From assembly GCF_027922005.1 (NCBI RefSeq), contig NZ_BSEV01000015.1, positions 1-64,000 of the forward strand: 64,000 nt of DNA, in the 5' to 3' direction. The DNA comes from Streptosporangium carneum (GTDB taxonomy: Bacteria > Actinomycetota > Actinomycetes > Streptosporangiales > Streptosporangiaceae). The notes under the pieces were generated by a model. That model saw nothing but the letters and a program-made list of their open reading frames with translations. It was not told the DNA's origin and made no database searches. A program made the translations under genes and the position numbers. Positions 36,983 to 61,807 of this stretch are shown here, piece after piece (position 1 is the stretch's first letter; each line of letters opens with the position of its first letter).

Positions 36983-39900
36983 ATGGCACAGGGGGGATGG
37001 ATCTCCCGCTGGCCGGTCCTCCGGCAGCTCAGGGGAGAGAACGCCAGGGGCTCGGCCGCCCGTTCGGCGCGCACCGACGCGCTGAGGCCCAGGACCGAGG
37101 ACGCCGACAGCGTCGCCCGGTCGGTCTGCCCCTACTGCGCGGTCGGATGCGGCCAGCTCGTCTACGTCAAGGACGGCCGCGTCACCCAGATCGAGGGCGA
37201 CCCCGACTCGCCCATCTCGCGCGGCAGGCTGTGCCCGAAGGGATCGGCGAGCAAACAGCTCGTCACCCACCCCGGCAGGCAGACCCAGGTGCTCTACCGG
37301 CGTCCGCACGGCACGGAGTGGGAGAGCCTCGACCTCGAGACCGCGATGGACATGATCGCCGACCGGGTGGTCCGCACCCGGCGGGAGACCTGGCAGCAGG
37401 AGGAGGGGGGCAAGGTCGTCCGGCGCACCATGGGCATCGCGAGCCTGGGCGGGGCGACGCTGGACAACGAAGAGAACTACCTGATGAAGAAGCTCTACAC
37501 CGCCCTCGGCGCGATCCAGGTGGAGAACCAGGCGCGTATTTGACACTCCTCCACCGTCCCCGGTCTGGGGACCAGCTTCGGGCGCGGCGGCGCGACGGAC
37601 TTCCAGCAGGATCTCGCGAACGCGGACTGCATCGTCATCCAGGGCTCCAACATGGCCGAATGCCACCCGGTCGGCTTCCAGTGGGTGGTCGAGGCCAAGG
37701 CCAGGGGGGCGAAGGTGTTCCACGTCGACCCGCGCTTCACCCGGACCAGCGCGATCGCCGACCGGCACCTGCCGATCCGCGCGGGCAGCGACATCGTCCT
37801 GCTCGGCGCGCTGATCAACCACGTCCTGGCCAACGAGCTGGACTTCCGCGAGTACGTGACGGCCTACACCAACGCCTCGTCGATCGTCTCCGACGACTTC
37901 AGGGACACCGAGGACCTGGACGGGCTGTTCTCGGGCTTCGACCCGGACACGCGTAAGTACGACCCGTCGAGCTGGGCCTACGCCGGAGGCAGGCAGGAGG
38001 CCGCCGCGGGGCAGCGCAGCGAGCAGTTCGAGGGCGGCGGGCGACGGGAGGACGGCGCCGGGCGGGGACAGGGCGAACCCGAGGCAGGCGAGCAGATGGA
38101 GGGCGGCGCGCGCCACGCCGAGGCGGCGGGCGCCGACCAGTACGGCTCGGGCGGAGCCGAGACGGAGGCCAGGCCCCTGACCGACCCGACGCTGCGTCAC
38201 CCGCGCTGCGTCTACCAGATCCTCAAACGGCACTTCGCGCGTTACACCCCCGAGATGGTCGAGGAGGTGTGCGGCATCCCCCGAGAGGGCTTCACGGAGC
38301 TCGCCGAGGCGATCACGGCCAACTCGGGGCGCGAGCGCACCACCGCGTGGGCCTACGCGGTCGGCTGGACCCAGCACACCGTCGGCGCGCAGTACATCCG
38401 TACGGCCTCGATCCTGCAGCTGCTGCTGGGCAACATGGGCCGCCCCGGCGGCGGCATCCTGGCGCTGCGCGGCCACGCCAGCATCCAGGGCTCGACCGAC
38501 ATCCCGACGCTGTTCAACATCCTGCCGGGCTACCTTCCGATGCCGCACGCCCACCGGCACGAGAACCTGGACGACTACCTGGCCCACGCGGGCGCGGACA
38601 CGGGTTTCTGGGGCAGGAAGCGCTCCTACATGGTCAGCCTGCTCAAGGCGTGGTGGGGGGAGGCGGCCACCGAGGACAACGACTTCTGCTTCGGCCACCT
38701 GCCCCGCCTCACCGGAGACCACGGCCACTACACGACCGTGATGGCGCAGATCGACGGCACGGTGAAGGGCTACTTCGTGGTGGGGGAGAACCCCGCCGTC
38801 GGCTCCTCGGGGGGCAGGACACAACGGCTCGGGCTGGCCAACCTCGACTGGCTCGTGGTGCGCGACCTCACCCTGGTCGAGACGGCCACGTTCTGGAAGG
38901 ACGGCCCCGAGCTGAGGACCGGGGAGACGCGCACCGAGGACGTCGCCACCGAGGTGTTCTTCATGCCCGCCGCCAGCCACGTGGAGAAGGAGGGCACCTT
39001 CACCAACACCCAGCGGCTGCTGCAGTGGCGGCACAAGGCGCTCGACCCGCCCGGCGACTGCCGCAGCGAACTGTCGTTCTACTACCACCTCGGCAAACGA
39101 ATCAGGGCTCGTCTGTCCGACGACGAGATCGACCGCCCGCTGCGCGAGCTGACCTGGGACTACCCGGAGGAGGGCGAGCGCGCGGAGCCCTCGGCCGAGG
39201 CCGTGCTGCGCGAGATCAACGGCACCGGCCCCGACGGGCGGGCGCTGTCGGCCTACACCGAGCTCGAACCCGACGGCTCGACCCGGTGCGGCTGCTGGAT
39301 CTACTGCGGGGTCTACGCCGACGAGGTCAACCAGGCGGCCAGGCGCAAGCCGGGACGTGAGCAGAGCTGGGTCGCGCCCGAATGGGGCTGGGCGTGGCCC
39401 GCCAACCGGCGCACCCTCTACAACCGGGCCTCCGCCGACCCGCAGGGCCGCCCGTGGAGCGAACGCAAGGCCTACGTCTGGTGGGACGCGGACAGGGGCG
39501 AGTGGACCGGGCACGACGTGCCCGACTTCGAGAAGGACAAGCCGCCGGACTACCTGCCGCCGGAGGGGGCGCTGGCCGAGGCGGCGCTGGCCGGGACCGA
39601 CCCGTTCATCATGCAGGCCGACGGCAAGGGCTGGCTGTTCGCCCCCGCGGGGCTGGCGGACGGGCCGCTGCCGACCCACTACGAGCCGCACGAGTCGCCG
39701 CTGCGCAACCCCCTGTACGGCCAGCAGGCCAACCCCGCGCGCCGGATCTACCACCGCGAGGAGGCCCCGTACAACCCGCCGCAGTCGCCGCGCTTCCCGT
39801 ACGTGCTCACGACCTACCGGCTCACCGAGCACCACACGGCGGGGGCCATGAGCAGGCCGCTGGCCTACCTGGCCGAGCTGCAGCCCGAGCTGTTCTGCGA

Positions 39901-40243
39901 GGTCTCGCCGCTGCTCGCCGAGCGGCTCGGGCTGGTCAACGGCGGCTGGGCGACCATCGTGACGAGCCGTACTGCGATCGAGGCCCGTGTCCTGGTCACC
40001 GATCGCGTCCGGCCGCTGCGGCTGGCGGGCAGGACGGTCCACCAGATCGGCCTGCCGTACCACTGGGGCTGGGGCGGCGGCGGACTCGTGACCGGCGACG
40101 TCGCCAACGACCTGCTGCCCCTCGTGCTCGACCCGAACGTCTACATCCAGGAGGGCAAGGCCGTCACCTGCGACCTGCGCCCCGGCAGGCGTCCCACGGG
40201 CAGGGCACTGCTCGAACTGATCCAGGAGTACCGCGATGGCTGA
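36983..40243 (+). CDS. Formate dehydrogenase catalytic subunit, selenocysteine-containing (UGA at 37541-37543)
   Basis: 1086 residues if the in-frame TGA at 37541 is read as selenocysteine (residue 187). The context NQARI-U-HSSTVPGLGTSFG is the conserved Mo/W-bis-MGD active site of FdnG/FdoG-type enzymes. The N-terminal 4Fe-4S motif is CPYCAVGCGQLVYVKDG...CPKG. A Gly/Glu/Gln-rich insert of about 60 residues (~335-395) interrupts the catalytic domain. The C-terminal molybdopterin-dinucleotide-binding domain (RLTEHHTAGAMSR) is complete. It oxidises formate to CO2. A SECIS hairpin follows the TGA, and selD and tRNA-Sec lie downstream, which supports recoding rather than a mutation. Confidence 0.93.
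37541..37572 (+). promoter_or_regulatory. Bacterial SECIS element after the selenocysteine UGA
   Basis: The UGA at 37541 is followed by a 6-bp hairpin GTCCCC (37556-37561) with GGGGAC (37567-37572) and the loop GGTCT. That loop matches the GGUCU core of known fdh SECIS loops that bind SelB. The spacing of 12 nt after the UGA is within the bacterial range. Confidence 0.85.
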
Positions 40244-42252: not shown

Positions 42253-43317
42253 TCAGCGCAGCCTCAGGGGCGTGCCGTCGGAGGGGACGAGCTCGCCGAC
42301 GACCGGAGCGCCGGGGACCTCGCCCGCCACGAGCAGGCCGCCCGAGGTCTGGGCGTCGGCGAGCAGCAGCAGGTCCTCCTCGGCGAACGGGCCGCGGTCC
42401 AGGTGCGGCTCGACCCAGGCCAGGTTGCGGCGGGTGCCGCCGCTGACGTGGCCGTCCCGCACCGCCTCGCGCGCCCCCTCCAGGTACGGCACGGCCGCCA
42501 CGTCGACCACGGCCGTGACCGCGCTCGCCCTGGCCAGCTTGTACAGATGGCCCAGCAGGCCGAACCCGGTCACGTCCGTCGCGCACTCCGCGCCCGCGGC
42601 GAGCGCGGCCCTCGAGGCGTCGCGGTTCAGCGCGGTCATCGCCGCGACCGCCTGCGGGAAGACCTCGCCGGTCGCCTTGTGCCGGGTGTTGAGCACCCCG
42701 ACGCCGAGTGGTTTGGTCAGCGAGATCGGCAGCCCCGGCCGCCCGCCGTCGATGCGCAGCAGCCGTTCCGGGTCGGCCAGGCCTGTGACGGCCATGCCGT
42801 ACTTCGGCTCGGGGTCGTCGACGCTGTGGCCGCCCGCGACGTGACAGCCCGCGGCCCGCGCCACGTCGAGGCCCCCGCGCAGCACCTCCTTCGCCAGCTC
42901 CATCGGCAGCCGCTCCCTGGGCCAGCACAGCAGGTTGACGGCCACCAGCGGCTCGCCGCCGACCGCGTACACGTCGGACAGGGCGTTGGCCGCGGCGATC
43001 CGCCCCCAGTCGTAGGGGTCGTCGACCACGGGGGTGAAGAAGTCGGCGGTCGCCACGAGCGCGCGGCCGCCCTCGATCCGGACCACGGCGGCGTCGTCGC
43101 CGTCGTCCAGCCCGATGACCAGCTCGCCCGCGGGGGAGAAGAGACGGGAGGCGTCCTCGGGACCGGTGAGGAGACCGGCGACGACGGCCTCCAGCTCGCC
43201 TGGCGGGATCTTGCAGGCGCAGCCGCCCCCGTGGGCGTAACCCGTCAGCCTGATCGCGCCCCGCCCGGATCCGGGCGGCCGCGCGGAGACGCCCCGCCCC
43301 GTCGTCGTTCCCGTCAT
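42253..43317 (-). CDS. selD: Selenide, water dikinase
   Basis: 354 residues. The catalytic Cys and Lys are in TGYAHGGGCACKIPPGELE, so this is the Cys form. An AIR-synthase-like ATP-binding fold follows (VIGLDDGDDAAVV, VVDDPYDWGRIAAANALSD, CHVAGGHSVDDPEPKYG). It makes selenophosphate, the selenium donor for Sec-tRNA synthesis by SelA. It sits between the formate dehydrogenase operon and tRNA-Sec. selA and selB are not in this window. Confidence 0.95.
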   Translation of the reverse strand: MTGTTTGRGVSARPPGSGRGAIRLTGYAHGGGCACKIPPGELEAVVAGLLTGPEDASRLFSPAGELVIGLDDGDDAAVVRIEGGRALVATADFFTPVVDDPYDWGRIAAANALSDVYAVGGEPLVAVNLLCWPRERLPMELAKEVLRGGLDVARAAGCHVAGGHSVDDPEPKYGMAVTGLADPERLLRIDGGRPGLPISLTKPLGVGVLNTRHKATGEVFPQAVAAMTALNRDASRAALAAGAECATDVTGFGLLGHLYKLARASAVTAVVDVAAVPYLEGAREAVRDGHVSGGTRRNLAWVEPHLDRGPFAEEDLLLLADAQTSGGLLVAGEVPGAPVVGELVPSDGTPLRLR

Positions 43318-43409
43318 GCCGCCTCCCCTGGTGGGCCCTTCCGAGGCTGCCCGGCGCGCCGCCGCCCCGCGTCCCGCAGTCCTACCCGCCCGCGAGTATG
43401 TTCTCCCCT

Positions 43410-43502
43410 GGAGGCGTCTGGGCGCCTGGTGGCCCCCGCGGTCTTCAAAACCGACGAGGCCGAGGTCCTCGGCCTGGCGGGTTCGATTCCCGTCCGCCTC
43501 CG
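43410..43502 (+). tRNA. selC: tRNA-Sec (anticodon UCA)
   Basis: A 93-nt tRNA with the acceptor GGAGGCG paired to CGCCTCC, anticodon TCA at 43445-43447 in the loop CTTCAAA, and a long variable arm (GAGGCCGAGGTCCTCGGCC). The T-arm is GGCGGGTTCGATTCCCGTC. The long variable arm and UCA anticodon identify it as tRNA-Sec. The CCA end is not encoded. An integrase gene begins about 100 bp downstream, so selC is the likely attachment site of the island to the right. Confidence 0.93.
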
Positions 43503-43603
43503 CTGCCTGGGCGAATGCGCGAAACCCGGGAAAGACGAGCCGGACGAGGCGGCGTCAATGACCTTGTTTGACGCCTCGATGGGAACAAGATGGGAACACC
43601 GCG

Positions 43604-49285: not shown

Positions 49286-49522
49286 TCATCCGTCGGGCAC
49301 TTGAAGAGCCCAGACGCTCCCCGACTGGAAGCAGGTGTACCAGGACCAGGGCCCATGCTCGCCAGCGTAGGCGCAGGACGCGTAGCTGGGGTAGTAGCCG
49401 GCGATGTACGCGAATGAGGCCGCAGTGGGTGTGGCTGCGGCGGTTGGTGCGGCGCTGGCGAGGGCGGCGGTGCCCAGCGCCGCTGCGAGCAGGGCTGCGG
49501 CGGGCAATCGACGGATCTTCAT
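49286..49522 (-). CDS. Small secreted protein, 78 aa (paralogue group)
   Basis: The ATG at 49522 follows GAGGAG. Signal peptide MKIRRLPAAALLAAALGTAA; mature part SFAYIAGYYPSYASCAYAGE then WYTCFQSGSVWALQV with two Cys. It is about 80% similar to the 58573 protein 9 kb away, so one is a recent copy of the other. Rich in Tyr, Trp and Ser. Function unknown. Confidence 0.7.
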   Translation of the reverse strand: MKIRRLPAAALLAAALGTAALASAAPTAAATPTAASFAYIAGYYPSYASCAYAGEHGPWSWYTCFQSGSVWALQVPDG

Positions 49523-53795: not shown

Positions 53796-54688
53796 GAACT
53801 GCTAACGCAATGAGCTGAGGCGGCGCCGGCAGATCAAGGCGCAGCCGAGGCTGAGGAAGGCTTCGTGGATGTCGGCGCGCACCTCCCAGCGGATACGCAG
53901 TCGACGGAAGTGGTGCAACAAGGCAAAGGCCTGCTCGACGACCCAGCGGTGTTTGCCCAGGCCGGAGCCGTGCTCGGTGCCGCGTCGGGCGATCAGCGGG
54001 CGAATGCCCAAGCCGCGGACCTGCTTGCGGTACTTGTCGTGGTCGTAGCCGCGGTCGGCGAGGACGACATCGGGGCGCCGACGCGGCCGGCCGCGCTTGC
54101 CGCGCACCGGTGGGACGGCCTCCAGAAGCGGTATCAGCTGGATGACGTCGCCCGCGGTTGCCGTCAGTCACAATCGCTGCCAGCGGGATGCCGGTGGCGT
54201 CGCTGATCAGGTGGTGCTTGCTGCCGGATCGTCCCCGATCGACCGGCGACGGGCCGGTCTGCGCCCCCCTTTTAGGGCTCTGACGTGGGAGGAGTCCACC
54301 GAAGCCCGGGAGAAGTCGATCGCTCCTGCCGCGCGCAGCCGGGCCAGGGGCACCTCGTGCAGGCGCTGCCAGACACCGGCCTTGTGCCACTCGTTCAGCC
54401 GCCGCCAGCACGTCATGCCCGAGCCGTACCCGAGTTCCTGCGGCAGGTGTTCCCAGGAGATCCGGGTGTGCAGCACGAACAGCACACCCTGCAGGGCCAG
54501 GCGGTCATCCAGCCGTTTTCGCCCTGGCCAGCGGGCTCGCCGCTGGTGTTTGGGCAGCAGGGGCTCGATGATCGCCCACAGCTCGTCGCCGACCTCCCAC
54601 GGCTTCAGCCGCGCCAACCCGCTCACCTCTCCCGCTGTCGTTACAGCGAGAGATCAAACCACAACGGAGATCATTCTGTTAGGAGCTA
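53796..54688 (-). mobile_element. IS5-family (IS427-type) insertion sequence, 893 bp
   Basis: The ends are imperfect inverted repeats: GAACTGCTAACGCAATGA at the left, TAGCTCCTAACAGAATGA (reverse complement) at the right. They are flanked by TTA direct repeats (53793-53795 and 54689-54691). Two overlapping transposase frames with an A4G6 slip site fit the IS427 group. Insertion split the ParB-like gene. Confidence 0.88.
53802..54626 (-). pseudogene. IS5-family DDE transposase, frameshifted
   Basis: The first frame (54207-54626) gives LARLKPWEVGDELWAIIEPL and ends after the first Asp (DSSHVRALKG). An AAAAGGGGGG run at this point fits the programmed -1 shift of the IS427 group, after which GPSPVDRGRSGSKHHLI continues. 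A second, unprogrammed shift occurs at GGGCGACGTC (about 54150), after which LADRGYDHDKYRK and RRGTEHGSGLGKHRWVVEQ (second Asp and the Glu) are read to a stop at 53802. The extra base probably inactivates this copy. Confidence 0.8.
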
Positions 54689-56810: not shown

Positions 56811-57758
56811 ATGAACTCTGCCCCGCGTTCCGTCGCGGTCGCCACTACCGACGGAATGCTGCACTTCGAGCTGGCCCTGGCCTACGAGGTCTTCGGCTCC
56901 GCCCCGGCCGCCCTGCCGGACCCCTGGTACGACGTCAGGGTGTGCGGCACGCGGGCCGTCCGGGTCGGCCGGTTCCTGCTGGAGCCGGACTGCGGGCTCG
57001 ACCGGCTGGCGCACGCCGACACCGTGATCGTCCCCGCCCTGGCGGACGTCGGCGAGGACCCGCCGGCCGACCTGGTCGAGGCGGTGCGCGCGGCCCACGA
57101 GTCGGGCGCGCGGATGGTCTCCCTGTGCACAGGCGCGTTCGTGCTCGCCGCCGCAGGCCTGCTGGACGGGCTGTACGCGACCACGCACTGGGCCCACACC
57201 GAGGAACTGGCCGCCCGCTACCCCCGGGTGAAGGTCGACCCGGACGTGCTCTACGTCGACAACGGCAGCGTGCTCACCTCCGCGGGCAAGGCCGCGGCGA
57301 TGGACCTGTGCCTGCATCTGGTCCGCCGCGACCACGGCTCGGCGATCGCCAACGTGGTCGCCCGCCGCCTGGTCGTGCCGCCCCACCGGGCCGGCGGCCA
57401 GGCCCAGTTCGTCACCACACCGGTGCCCGCCCAGGACGGCCATCCCCTGGCCGAGCTGCTCCCCTGGGTGATGCGGCGGCTGGACCAGCCGCTCACCGTG
57501 GAGGACCTGGCCCGCCAGGCGAACATGAGCTCGCGCCACCTGGCCCGCCACTTCCGCTCGGTAACCGGCACCACTCCGCTGCAGTGGCTGCTGACGCAGC
57601 GGATCCGCCGCGCGCAGGAGCTGCTGGAGACCACGGACGACAGCGTCGACACCATCGCCTCGGCCGCGGGCATGGGCACGGCGACGACACTGCGCCGCCA
57701 CTTCCACCGCGCGATCGGCGTCCCGCCGGACGCCTACCGCCGGACGTTCCGGGCGTGA
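56811..57758 (+). CDS. GlxA-family transcriptional regulator (DJ-1/PfpI-like + AraC HTH)
   Basis: 315 residues from the ATG at 56811; an ATG six or seven codons earlier is possible. Residues ~8-180 form a DJ-1/PfpI-like domain with the Cys-containing MVSLCTGAFVLAAAGLLDG. Residues ~220-315 are two AraC helix-turn-helices (LTVEDLARQANMSSRHLARH, IASAAGMGTATTLRRHFHR). Such proteins are ligand-responsive activators or repressors. It is divergent from the oxidoreductase gene at 56709. Confidence 0.92.
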   Translation: MNSAPRSVAVATTDGMLHFELALAYEVFGSAPAALPDPWYDVRVCGTRAVRVGRFLLEPDCGLDRLAHADTVIVPALADVGEDPPADLVEAVRAAHESGARMVSLCTGAFVLAAAGLLDGLYATTHWAHTEELAARYPRVKVDPDVLYVDNGSVLTSAGKAAAMDLCLHLVRRDHGSAIANVVARRLVVPPHRAGGQAQFVTTPVPAQDGHPLAELLPWVMRRLDQPLTVEDLARQANMSSRHLARHFRSVTGTTPLQWLLTQRIRRAQELLETTDDSVDTIASAAGMGTATTLRRHFHRAIGVPPDAYRRTFRA

Positions 57759-57889
57759 GACCTGCGGTCCTTCTTGGTCGATGACCGGGCGAGGACCTCA
57801 CCTCGGTCAGCGGACCGATGCCGCCCTGAGGCCATCCAGCGCTCTCCCGCGCCACGCCTGGAAATTCAGGTGTGAAACGTGACGGGAAT

Positions 57890-57973
57890 CGGTAGCGTCG
57901 CATGCAGTTCATCGGGCCTGGAGCGGGTGCGGGTCGAAGGACGTCGGTTATCTCTTTGAACCAGACGCTACCG
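57890..57973. repeat. 10-bp inverted repeat framing the first linker-like unit
   Basis: CGGTAGCGTC (57890-57899) pairs with GACGCTACCG (57964-57973). Between them is a first copy of the linker motif (CGGGTCGAA at 57930, TCGGTTAT at 57944). The 21 nt after that motif (57952-57972) contain CTTTGAA and end in CC like the 5' halves of the true permuted tRNAs, suggesting a collapsed tRNA exon. Confidence 0.5.
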
Positions 57974-58059
57974 GCGCCCATCCCCATATCCGTGCCTTCT
58001 CCCGGCCCGGTGAACTGGTCAGGTCTGGTGTTGACACGGGTCGAAGCATCATCGGTTAT
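57973..58059 (+). other. Linker RNA before permuted tRNA-Asn
   Basis: 87 nt. It contains ATCCCCATATCCGTGCC near its start and CGGGTCGAA (58037) ... TCGGTTAT (58052-58059) at its end, immediately before position 29 of tRNA-Asn. The same two blocks recur in the other linkers. Confidence 0.6.
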
Positions 58060-58135
58060 CCACTGTTAATGGGGTGGCCGCGAGTTCGATTCTCGCCGCG
58101 GACTTCGGTCCGTGTAGCTCAGTCGGCAGAGCACC
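58060..58135 (+). tRNA. Circularly permuted tRNA-Asn (anticodon GUU)
   Basis: The 3' half comes first (58060-58103): half anticodon stem CCA, loop CTGTTAA (anticodon GTT at 58065-58067), stem TGGGG, variable TGGCC, T-arm GCGAG-TTCGATT-CTCGC, acceptor CGCGGAC. After a TTCG tetraloop (58104-58107) the 5' half follows (58108-58135): acceptor GTCCGTG, TA, D-arm GCTC-AGTCGGCA-GAGC, A, CC. Re-joining position 28 to 29 gives anticodon stem CCCCA/TGGGG, all Watson-Crick. The acceptor is 7/7 with one G-U. U8, A14, G18, G19, A21 and the T-loop are conserved. The discriminator would be U, whereas bacterial tRNA-Asn normally has G. Confidence 0.8.
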
Positions 58136-58230
58136 GAGAAGGCCGGTGGGCGTCCCCACATCCGTGCCGGATCCAGACCTGGTCGTTCGTCGGTCCTGTC
58201 GGCGGTGCGGGTCGAATCTTGATCGGTTAT
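58136..58230 (+). other. Linker RNA between the two permuted tRNAs
   Basis: 95 nt. The first part contains AAGGCCGGTGGGCG and a hairpin GTGGG-CGTC-CCCAC, then ACATCCGTGCC. The end carries CGGGTCGAA (58208-58216) and TCGGTTAT (58223-58230), adjacent to position 29 of tRNA-Gly. No coding potential. Confidence 0.6.
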
Positions 58231-58306
58231 CGCCTTCCAAGCGGGTGACGCAGGTTCGAATCCTGCCGGACCCTCAGGGGTTCGTCGTCTAGCGGCCCAG
58301 GACGCC
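58231..58306 (+). tRNA. Circularly permuted tRNA-Gly (anticodon UCC)
   Basis: 3' half first (58231-58273): CGC, loop CTTCCAA (anticodon TCC at 58236-58238), GCGGG, variable TGAC, T-arm GCAGG-TTCGAAT-CCTGC, acceptor CGGACCC. A 4-nt TCAG loop follows, then the 5' half (58278-58306): acceptor GGGTTCG, TC, D-arm GTCT-AGCGGCCCA-GGAC, G, CC. Re-joining 28 to 29 gives CCCGC/GCGGG, all Watson-Crick; the acceptor is 7/7 with one G-U. U73 and loop CTTCCAA suit bacterial tRNA-Gly-UCC. Reading the same DNA as an ordinary tRNA with an insertion gives a poorer acceptor and no U8. Confidence 0.8.
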
Positions 58307-58387
58307 TAAACGGCCGGTCGGAGCTCCCACATCCGCACCGTCGACAGGGCTGACGAGCAGGGGAGCGGGTCGAAGTCGGTCGGTCAT
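58307..58387 (+). other. Linker RNA after permuted tRNA-Gly
   Basis: 81 nt. It aligns with the previous linker at its start (ACGGCCGGTCGGAG, then CCCACATCCGCACC) and ends CGGGTCGAA (58366-58374) and TCGGTCAT (58380-58387). No tRNA half follows, so the array ends here or has lost its next unit. Confidence 0.55.
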
Positions 58388-58572
58388 CGGGAACAGAAGG
58401 TCGCACCGCACGAGCGTGGAGGGGCCAGGTCCGGCCCGCCTGGAAGCCCTGGAGGCGCTCGACGCCCACAAGTGGTGGGTGAGCGAAGACCGGCGTGAAC
58501 GGCGCTCAGGAAAGCCGCCAGGGGTTGACCGGGCACGCCCCGCGCCGGTGGCCGAGGCGCGCCCGTGCGACT

Positions 58573-58815
58573 TCATCCGGGCACTTGAAGAGCCCAGACG
58601 CTCCCCGACTGGAAGCAGGTGTACCAGGGCCACGTGCCGTTTCTCCTGCCCTGCTCGCCGACGTAGGAGCAGGACGCGTAGCTGGGGTAGTAGCCGACGA
58701 TGTACGCGAATGAGGTCGCGGCGGGGGTGGCCGCGGCGGGTGCGGCGTTGGCCAGCATGCCGGCGCCCAGCGCCGCCGCGAGCAGGGCTGCGGCGGACAG
58801 TCGGCGGATCTTCAC
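58573..58815 (-). CDS. Small secreted protein, 80 aa (copy of the 49286 protein)
   Basis: GTG start at 58815. Signal MKIRRLSAAALLAAALGAGM; mature SFAYIVGYYPSYASCSYVGE and WPWYTCFQSGSVWALQVPG. It differs from the 49286 protein by a short GRRNGT insert and a few substitutions. The conserved upstream element (58850-58917) precedes it. This shows the two ends of the accessory region share duplicated segments. Confidence 0.7.
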   Translation of the reverse strand: MKIRRLSAAALLAAALGAGMLANAAPAAATPAATSFAYIVGYYPSYASCSYVGEQGRRNGTWPWYTCFQSGSVWALQVPG

Positions 58816-60324: not shown

Positions 60325-60652
60325 GCTTCGACAGCCTGATCCGGCCCATGGGCGAACACGTCACCTTCACCTCGCCTGACCGACCTCTGAGTCGCTCGAA
60401 CCCTCGGTGACACGGTCAGTACGGCCTTGCCCCCTCCTGGCGCCCCGGTGATCACCAGGCGGTGAGGCGACAGCGTGCGGCAGTGGTCGAGCCCTCGATC
60501 CAGCCGGCCTTTCGCTCGTGCGCCTGTACTCCGGCGATCGACACCGGAGCCCGCCAGGCGTGAACCCCAAAAACCAGTACAACCCGCGCACCATGACGGC
60601 CTACGCTGCCACCACGGTGCGCGGCACCCACCCATTCCGATCGGAGACCCCC
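60325..60652. other. Intergenic region upstream of rtcB, with a possible ATPase fragment
   Basis: No complete gene. On the minus strand at about 60420-60480, a frame reads HRLVITGAPGGGKAVLTVS, a Walker A-like sequence with Ala replacing the usual Thr after Lys. It is probably a remnant of a STAND ATPase gene. The rtcB ribosome-binding site (GGAGA, 60642-60646) lies at the right end. Confidence 0.4.
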
Positions 60653-61807
60653 ATGCCGAAGCAGGTAGCACCCAACCTCATCTCCTGGGCCAGCGACATC
60701 GAGCCCGGGACGATCGAGCAGGCCGCCCGCGCCGCCCGTCTCCCATTCGTCGAAGGCCACGTCGCCCTCATGCCCGACGCCCATGTCGGAATGGGGGCCA
60801 CTGTCGGCTCCGTCATCCCCACCCGTGGCGCGATCATCCCGTCAGCGGTCGGCGTTGACATCGGCTGCGGCATGATCGCCACTGAGACGGACCTCACCGC
60901 CGCGGACCTGCCCGACGACCTGTCCGCGCTCATGCCGCTCGTGGAACAGCTCATCCCGGCCGGCGTCGGCAAGGGTCACCACGATCCGGCCGTCGACGAG
61001 GCGCTGGGCGCGCTCGGTACGCCGCACACTGACCTCACAGTGAGGCAGGAGAAGACCGTCGCCAGCCAGTTCGGAACGCTCGGAAGCGGCAACCACTTCG
61101 TGGAAGTGTGCCTCGACGAGCGCGATCGGGTCTGGACCGTGCTCCACTCCGGATCCCGCGGTATCGGCAACCAGCTCGCCACCCGCCACATCGGCGAGGC
61201 CAAGAAGTTGATGGCCCAGTACTTCATCACCTTGGCCGACCCCGACCTGGCCTACCTCGTGCAGGGAACCCCGCAGTTCACCGCCTACATCAGCGACATG
61301 CTCTGGTCGCAGCGCTACGCCATGGAATCGCGGGCACGGATGGATCGAGTCCTCAGCCAAGCCCTGTTCGGCGTGGTCGGGAAGGGTGAGCGGGTCAAGA
61401 CCGTGAACTGCCATCACAACTTCACGCAGCAGGAGAAGCACCGCGGCAAGGATGTGTGGCTCACCCGCAAGGGAGCCATCAAGGCCGACGTGGGCGACGA
61501 GGGAGTGATCCCCGGAAGCATGGGCACCCGCTCCTACATCGTGACCGGTCTCGGCAACCCGGCCTCCTACAACTCGTGCTCCCACGGTGCAGGCCGGCGC
61601 ATGTCCCGTACGCAGGCCCGCCGCGAACTCACCGCCGCATCACTCGCTGAGGCGATGGGCGACCGCACCTGGAACGCCGACCGCGCAGGCGCCCTGGTGG
61701 ATGAGCACCCGCAGGCCTACAAGTCCATCGACCAGGTGATGGACGACCAGAAGGACCTCGTCGCCGTGCAGCACACGTTGCGGCAGATCTTCAACTACAA
61801 GGGCTGA
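60653..61807 (+). CDS. rtcB: RNA-splicing ligase RtcB
   Basis: 384 residues from the ATG at 60653 (GGAGA five bases upstream). Metal-binding residues are in LMPDAHVG, VGVDIGCGM, GTLGSGNHF and LHSGSRGIG. NCHHNFTQQE supplies further ligands, and the guanylylated His is in the C-terminal NSCSHGAGRRMSR. The length matches short bacterial RtcB. It joins 2',3'-cyclic-phosphate and 5'-OH RNA ends with GTP and Mn2+. In archaea and animals it ligates tRNA halves. Its closeness to the permuted tRNA array makes it the prime candidate ligase for those exons (inference). Confidence 0.95.
   Translation: MPKQVAPNLISWASDIEPGTIEQAARAARLPFVEGHVALMPDAHVGMGATVGSVIPTRGAIIPSAVGVDIGCGMIATETDLTAADLPDDLSALMPLVEQLIPAGVGKGHHDPAVDEALGALGTPHTDLTVRQEKTVASQFGTLGSGNHFVEVCLDERDRVWTVLHSGSRGIGNQLATRHIGEAKKLMAQYFITLADPDLAYLVQGTPQFTAYISDMLWSQRYAMESRARMDRVLSQALFGVVGKGERVKTVNCHHNFTQQEKHRGKDVWLTRKGAIKADVGDEGVIPGSMGTRSYIVTGLGNPASYNSCSHGAGRRMSRTQARRELTAASLAEAMGDRTWNADRAGALVDEHPQAYKSIDQVMDDQKDLVAVQHTLRQIFNYKG

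Follow-up and report, generated by a model that had tools for sequence, protein, structure and literature searches.

The window analysed here, a 64,000-nucleotide stretch of the Streptosporangium carneum genome, contains an array of four related units on the forward strand, visible in positions 57922-58404. The first (unit A, 57922-57997) is a Y-RNA-like stem without a tRNA domain; it carries the 5' motif described below and matches our covariance model, R1, at 49.5 bits (E 5.3e-10). Units B (58029-58169) and C (58200-58340) each hold a complete circularly permuted tRNA domain, and were scored by R1 at 144.2 and 108.5 bits respectively, unit B being one of the model's own training sequences and unit C being absent from its alignment. 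The last (unit D, 58360-58404) is a truncated remnant, a 5' stem and the start of a tRNA-like domain that is then broken; its similarity to relatives ends at 58395-58405, and two translations on the 3' side of the break belong to no Pfam family at cut-off. Upstream of unit A, at 57860-57923 (+), is a conserved stretch, GGAAATTCAGGTGTGA ... GGTAGCGT ... CATCGGGCCTGGAG, that may act as a promoter. In many of the 35 arrays described below, similar promoter-like blocks, judged by eye, come before the first unit; no match to the sigma-70 consensus was found in 57700-58700.

Also found in the window were a small ORF (58573-58815, -) with a signal-peptide-like start and no Pfam family, the last 42 residues of which are 76% identical to 49295-49408 (-), 9 kb away, and an ORF for the N-terminal part of an IS4/5-type transposase (54207-54626, -; PF13340).

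The tRNA domain of unit B occupies 58060-58135 (+). It opens with the anticodon hairpin CCA-CTGTTAA-TGG (58060-58072), whose loop, CTGTTAA, presents the anticodon GTT, and continues through a T arm (GCGAG-TTCGATT-CTCGC) and an acceptor stem in which CGCGGAC is joined to GTCCGTG by a four-nucleotide cap, TTCG (58080-58114). A D arm (GCTC-AGTCGGCA-GAGC) and A26 follow, and the fold terminates at CC, positions 27-28 (58117-58135). The domain of unit C (58231-58306) has an identical plan, with CTTCCAA (TCC) as its anticodon loop and TCAG as its cap. In both, the 3' half of a cloverleaf precedes the 5' half of the same cloverleaf, and a structural parser found 7/7 acceptor pairs, 5/5 T-stem pairs, 4/4 D-stem pairs and 3+2 anticodon-stem pairs in each. 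The preliminary description of this DNA, made by reading the sequence alone, had placed permuted tRNA folds at these positions, and the parser bore this out, with all seven acceptor pairs, the four-nucleotide caps and 5/5 anticodon-stem pairs once the halves are rotated.

That description had also proposed that the halves be rotated and folded again. Rotated in silico and given a 10-nt leader and a CCA-containing tail, unit B was recognised by ARAGORN as tRNA-Asn(gtt) and unit C as tRNA-Gly(tcc); among 36 anticodon-bearing units from the window and its relatives, 35 were called when rotated and one when unrotated, and mononucleotide-shuffled controls yielded no calls (0/108). In gene order, units B and C received no ARAGORN call and nothing at the Rfam gathering threshold when the whole window was scanned. 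The sole ARAGORN or Rfam (gathering) call in the whole window was a tRNA-Sec at 43410-43503, which by eye lies beside a SelD-like ORF and near a formate-dehydrogenase-like ORF (window 42253-43503 and 37652-40243); this region is probably a selenocysteine formate dehydrogenase locus.

Both folds sit inside a longer repeated unit, in which a conserved stem encloses the halves, a feature that the preliminary description had overlooked. Common to the two folds are the 5' flank GGGTCGAA-N-TCGGTTAT, which follows a G+C-rich strand, and the 3' flank CCGGTNGGNGNNCCCACATCCG. Unit B carries the 5' strand of this stem at 58033-58055 (+; GACACGG GTCGAA GCATCATCGG), which contains the exact motif and forms helices 1 and 2 of the covarying alignment, and the 3' strand at 58143-58168 (+; CCGGTGGGC ... 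CACATCCGTGCC), placed by its motif and by the 26-unit alignment. Three exact copies of the 5' motif occur in the window against 0.00 expected from shuffles, and the motif shortened by one base occurs seven times in the genome, where a reversed control pattern occurs zero times. The Ro60-binding stem of Y RNAs is marked by the motif GGUCGAA ... GUUAUC with CAUAUCC opposite, and its Ro60-binding strand we take to be GGGUCGAA...GGUUAUC. The flanks of the units resemble this stem, and the units appear to carry the Ro60-binding type of motif both as a sequence pattern and as a paired helix.

Two other candidates for the flanks were set aside. A ribozyme or permuted intron had been considered first, because a gene for the RNA ligase RtcB neighbours the array, and was dropped since Rfam shows no such family above cut-off; in L021 a Y unit is overlapped by a weak match to Twister-sister, at 27.6 bits against a cut-off of 34. 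The leader and trailer of a spliced tRNA were dropped as well, as the flanks matched the Ro60 stem and a search for the tRNA-intron endonuclease family PF01974 gave nothing.

The source genome (G000) contains a second, homologous array on contig C47, where a TROVE/vWA_Ro60 gene comes directly after it. This Ro60 gene has an RNA_ligase-family (PF09414) gene (L009:13260-14234, +) about 4.7 kb away. The contig of the window array gave no TROVE match, Ro60 is not beside the window copy, and a search for Ro60 remnants downstream of it returned none that was convincing (best E 0.53). Since the window array is an orphan, with no TROVE gene on its contig and a broken unit D, much of the evidence rests on homologues. 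In G003, G014 and G008 the arrays directly upstream of Ro60 are 75-86% identical in DNA to that of the window, and the array upstream of Ro60 in G019 is 73% identical.

A protein search of named genomes produced 69 Ro60 loci. Thirty-one related actinomycete loci, L115-L145, three of which stem from one genome, came from Streptosporangium, Microtetraspora, Nonomuraea, Spongiactinospora, Sphaerisporangium, Actinomadura, Sinosporangium and an unclassified Streptosporangiaceae, all of the order Streptosporangiales. The motif, with at most one mismatch, was present within 1 kb upstream of Ro60 in 31/31 of these loci and upstream in 36 of the 69 Ro60 loci overall; it was not found upstream in 33 of the 69, some of which had little upstream sequence. 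R1 also matched all 31 of the L115-L145 loci at E <= 1e-6, including nine that contributed no sequence to the model, and in six loci (L155, L165, L166, L167, L169 and L179) its best matches lay just downstream, not upstream, of Ro60. As judged from these homologous arrays, the link of the units to Ro60 is well supported.

When the units were read across 35 arrays (31 named arrays, the genome's own C47 array, G003, G014 and the window), four slots recurred, though some arrays lack one or more of them. In slot A the stem stands without any tRNA domain; slot B holds an entire permuted tRNA, anticodon arm included. Slot C is variable, being either complete or, as in C47 and L115, a minihelix of T arm and acceptor only, and slot D mostly consists of T, acceptor and D arms without an anticodon hairpin, like the bacterial Y RNA YrlA. 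A script that accepted units with a 7-nt loop containing U33, at least four of five stem pairs and a D arm found 36 anticodon-bearing units, 27 with the D stem GCTC and nine others; of the nine, the one in slot D of L136 goes uncalled by ARAGORN and was probably picked up in error.

The loops of the 27 units mostly follow the consensus CU-NN-U-AA, with U33 and A38 in every unit (27/27 each), C32 in 26/27, A37 in 25/27 and U36 in 23/27. Positions 34 and 35 vary strongly, with entropies of 1.73 and 1.64 bits, and the 27 units display 11 anticodons: GTT in nine, TCT in six, CAT, TTT and TGT in two each, and CAG, TCC, TTC, ATT, ACG and CTT once each. An alignment of 26 of the 27 units, one slot-C unit of L119 being left out, had 97.5% of its cells paired, and 16 of its 37 pairs showed two-sided change. 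In none of 500 shuffles, which ignore relatedness, were the paired cells, the two-sided changes or the covariation score as high as in the alignment, whereas 45/500 reached the measure "further pair types"; slid controls, which preserve relatedness, were 32-45% paired. Two-sided changes were found in two of the three pairs of the anticodon hairpin and in both gap-spanning pairs, 27:43 and 28:42, and the D-stem pairs were invariant. Because the helices covary across 26 homologous units, the permuted folds are not a product of chance: covariation indicates a real topology of circularly permuted tRNA that is under selection, and the structure is well supported. Folds of single sequences speak against this. 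In those of unit B, whether taken from the window or from G003, the consensus anticodon arm does not form, and relative to shuffles the window copy of unit B was no more stable (z -0.73), with values of z -2.25 for unit B of G003, z -2.44 for unit C and z -2.14 for unit A.

The preliminary description had read units B and C as tRNA genes whose transcript is cut on both sides of each domain and joined at 28/29. As an explanation this would require that RtcB, for example, does the joining, that the cap is opened and CCA added, and that the product takes part in translation, and we consider it highly improbable. In its favour are the 35/36 rotated folds called by ARAGORN, U33 and A38 in 27/27 loops of the slot-B type, and the RtcB RNA ligase gene (60518-61807, +; PF01139, E 3.8e-110), a neighbour with a putative role that begins about 2.1 kb downstream of the array, with other ORFs between. 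The genome has two RtcB genes in all, the other being at G000:C6:233826-234926. Against the explanation, RtcB and the six other window neighbours tested had no counterpart at E 1e-8 in the sequence read around the arrays of relatives. The bodies of the units also seldom fit the anticodon: with the anticodon masked, and with G000 tRNAs as the reference even for units of other species, the best-matching ordinary tRNA agreed with the anticodon's amino acid in 4/36 units only, and unit C, with its Gly(UCC) anticodon, has a tRNA-Glu-like body. Ordinary tRNA-Asn(GTT) and tRNA-Gly(TCC) genes are present in the source genome, and PF01974 had zero matches there, while four archaeal controls were positive. 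Sibling slots that lack the anticodon, or most of the tRNA, as slot C of C47 and L115 does, speak against a product that works in translation. Together with the Ro60-type flanks and the Ro60-linked homologous arrays, these results speak against the reading as tRNA genes; cutting and joining at 28/29 likewise found no support, given the absence of PF01974 matches and the sibling slots without an anticodon arm, although from sequence alone the joining step is conceivable, with an RtcB gene nearby.

Permuted tRNA genes have been reviewed for six algae and one archaeon, with 34 genes in the available text of the review (PMC3978253). The window units are similar to the algal and Thermofilum genes in that source in having the 3' half first and a short sequence joining the acceptor ends. 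As far as the same text describes them, those genes are processed into tRNA at BHB-type junctions, whereas the window units have Ro60-type flanks, a genome in which no endonuclease was detected, and mismatched identities.

A closer likeness is to YrlA, which the consulted part of PMC8394870 describes as an Rsr-binding stem with a domain like the D, T and acceptor arms of tRNA, as a substrate of DusA and TruB, and as a tether of PNPase. In the excerpt available of PMC11472068, YrlA (6CU1) superposes on tRNAs by way of a circular permutation. The units share with YrlA (RF02553; PDB 6CU1) a Ro60-type terminal stem, a permuted series of T arm, capped acceptor and D arm, and, in the homologous arrays though not in the window copy, linkage to Ro60 genes. 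Unlike YrlA, with its D, T and acceptor arms as outlined in the sections seen of PMC8394870, window-type units in slot B, and often in slot C, add a full anticodon arm at 28/29; also unlike YrlA, they form arrays, often of two to four units, and all that were scanned score below the Rfam cut-off. The Rfam YrlA model gave 38.6 bits (E 1.9e-5) for unit B (Asn) and 21.4 bits (E 1.8) for unit C (Gly), the latter compared with 23.4 bits for the plain tRNA model, both below cut-off. Its best scores were 46.9 bits in the relatives scanned and 49.5 bits in other taxa (Nocardia, L160), and its gathering cut-off of 69 bits was reached by no unit in the 14 loci scanned. The gene neighbourhood shows a similar mixture. 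As in the Rsr-Y RNA-RtcB repair operons covered by the available portion of PMC7790460, Ro60, Y RNA and RtcB recur, with RtcB near the window array; unlike the rsr-yrlBA-rtcBA operon of Salmonella in that portion, the window has no operon, RtcB being about 2.1 kb away and Ro60 on another contig. Bacterial Y RNAs as permuted tRNA mimics are thus known, and the complete anticodon arm is the difference here; a search of the literature at the level of titles and abstracts, a scope outside which the primary YrlA papers fall, found no description of anticodon-bearing Y RNAs.

Run over 85 sources, R1 gave 144 matches at E <= 1e-6. A complete anticodon arm, defined as 3+2 pairs and a 7-nt loop with U33, was found in 32 of the 100 matches from the arrays read and in 20 of the 44 others. 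Six of these 20 come from additional genomes of the window's genus (L050-L053), four from genomes of its class (L186-L189), and ten from records named as Nocardia neocaledoniensis (two strains), Anaerolineae, Armatimonadetes, Melainabacteria, Obscuribacterales (two), Phycisphaerales, an uncultured cyanobacterium and a Proteobacteria MAG, among which MAG contigs may be mis-binned. Similar units lie beside Ro60 in Nocardia and in Anaerolineae, Armatimonadetes and cyanobacterial MAGs. A scan of the phylum with R1 alone produced full-length matches above 60 bits in 7/296 genomes, the source genome included. Of the seven loci outside the source genome that were followed up (L185-L191, of which L191 scored 55.7 bits), four lie no more than 1.5 kb from a homologue of Ro60, strong in one case (E 6e-60) and weak in three (E 4e-5 to 8e-4), and Ro60 played no part in finding these loci. 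Among the matches listed, 201/296 genomes had one at E <= 0.001 and many of the weaker ones span model positions 31-106 only; we suspect that these are adjacent genes for ordinary tRNAs, read as 3' half, spacer and 5' half, and they were not counted, the distribution given here resting on full-length matches above 60 bits.

Taken as a whole, the features of the window locus point very strongly to an orphan array of bacterial YrlA-like Y RNAs, tRNA mimics on a Ro60 handle that would not be matured to tRNA. Each unit would end in a stem of the kind bound by Ro60 (Rsr), and in units B and C a tRNA opened at 28/29, its acceptor end closed by a four-nucleotide cap, would replace the loop, such that the RNA folds as a tRNA mimic hanging from the handle. 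A role as tether or decoy seems most likely, in which Ro60 would grip the stem and the mimic would engage tRNA-binding enzymes. The sequence work establishes the anatomy, the covariation, the linkage to Ro60 in relatives, the diversity of anticodons and the poor fit of body to anticodon; from these we infer that the units are transcribed, that they bind Ro60 and that their anticodon loop serves as a lure for loop-reading factors. The window copy, which has no Ro60 of its own, would act with the Ro60 encoded on another contig.

The absence of Ro60 on the contig and the break in unit D also suggest that the window array may be decaying. That this copy, unlike its relatives, has lost its function and is left over from a Ro60 locus is conceivable, though not what we would expect: units B and C retain every stem of the tRNA domain, promoter-like blocks upstream were retained, as judged by eye, and a Ro60 gene is present in trans.

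For the anticodon arm of these Y RNAs, the reading that we prefer, tentatively and with more doubt than confidence, is that of a decoy or sensor that would draw anticodon nucleases or loop-modifying enzymes away from cellular tRNA, an idea compatible with their identity as Y RNAs. The nearly fixed CU-NN-U-AA frame around variable positions 34-35, with 11 anticodons, is consistent with this, as is an anticodon stem kept through two-sided changes. A precedent is the suggestion, in the available part of PMC7790460, that YrlA might act as a competitive inhibitor of an anticodon nuclease without being cut by it; the candidate nuclease is only hypothetical, however, and the same part reports no fragments of Salmonella YrlA, i.e., it is uncut. 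The variation at 34-35 could also reflect absent selection, as some other unpaired columns (149, 3 and 120) vary as much, and the excess of anticodon change in ten close pairs (0.20 per site against 0.11 elsewhere) is weak, the pairs being too few and non-independent to indicate selection.

A further feature, element E, was found directly before the Ro60 start codon. Its pattern, CAYATC-CGC...GCG-G-GTCGA, contains the two strands of a Ro60 site with their places exchanged; a short loop closes it, and a Shine-Dalgarno-like stretch comes soon after. Scanned in the last 90 bases before the Ro60 start in L115-L145, L009, L046 and L047, a relaxed form of the pattern was matched in 26/34 arrays (a raw pattern count, with the window excluded), and in several arrays, by eye, a pyrimidine run before the element could pair with the Shine-Dalgarno-like stretch. 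It is possible that element E serves in autoregulation of Ro60.

What Ro60-Y RNA particles do in bacteria is still largely open, and the available text of PMC8394870 describes it as under investigation. Anticodon-bearing Y RNAs of the type described here are missed by ARAGORN and by Rfam cut-offs. An account in which Ro60-bound Y RNAs with changing anticodons are decoys or sensors for anticodon-loop enzymes, and in which Ro60 also controls its own translation through an inside-out element by the ribosome-binding site, is unlikely to hold in full. An inside-out Ro60 site before the Ro60 start would nevertheless offer a simple model of feedback, and a conserved anticodon arm with a varying anticodon suggests what the purpose of the mimic may be, in a form that is directly testable.
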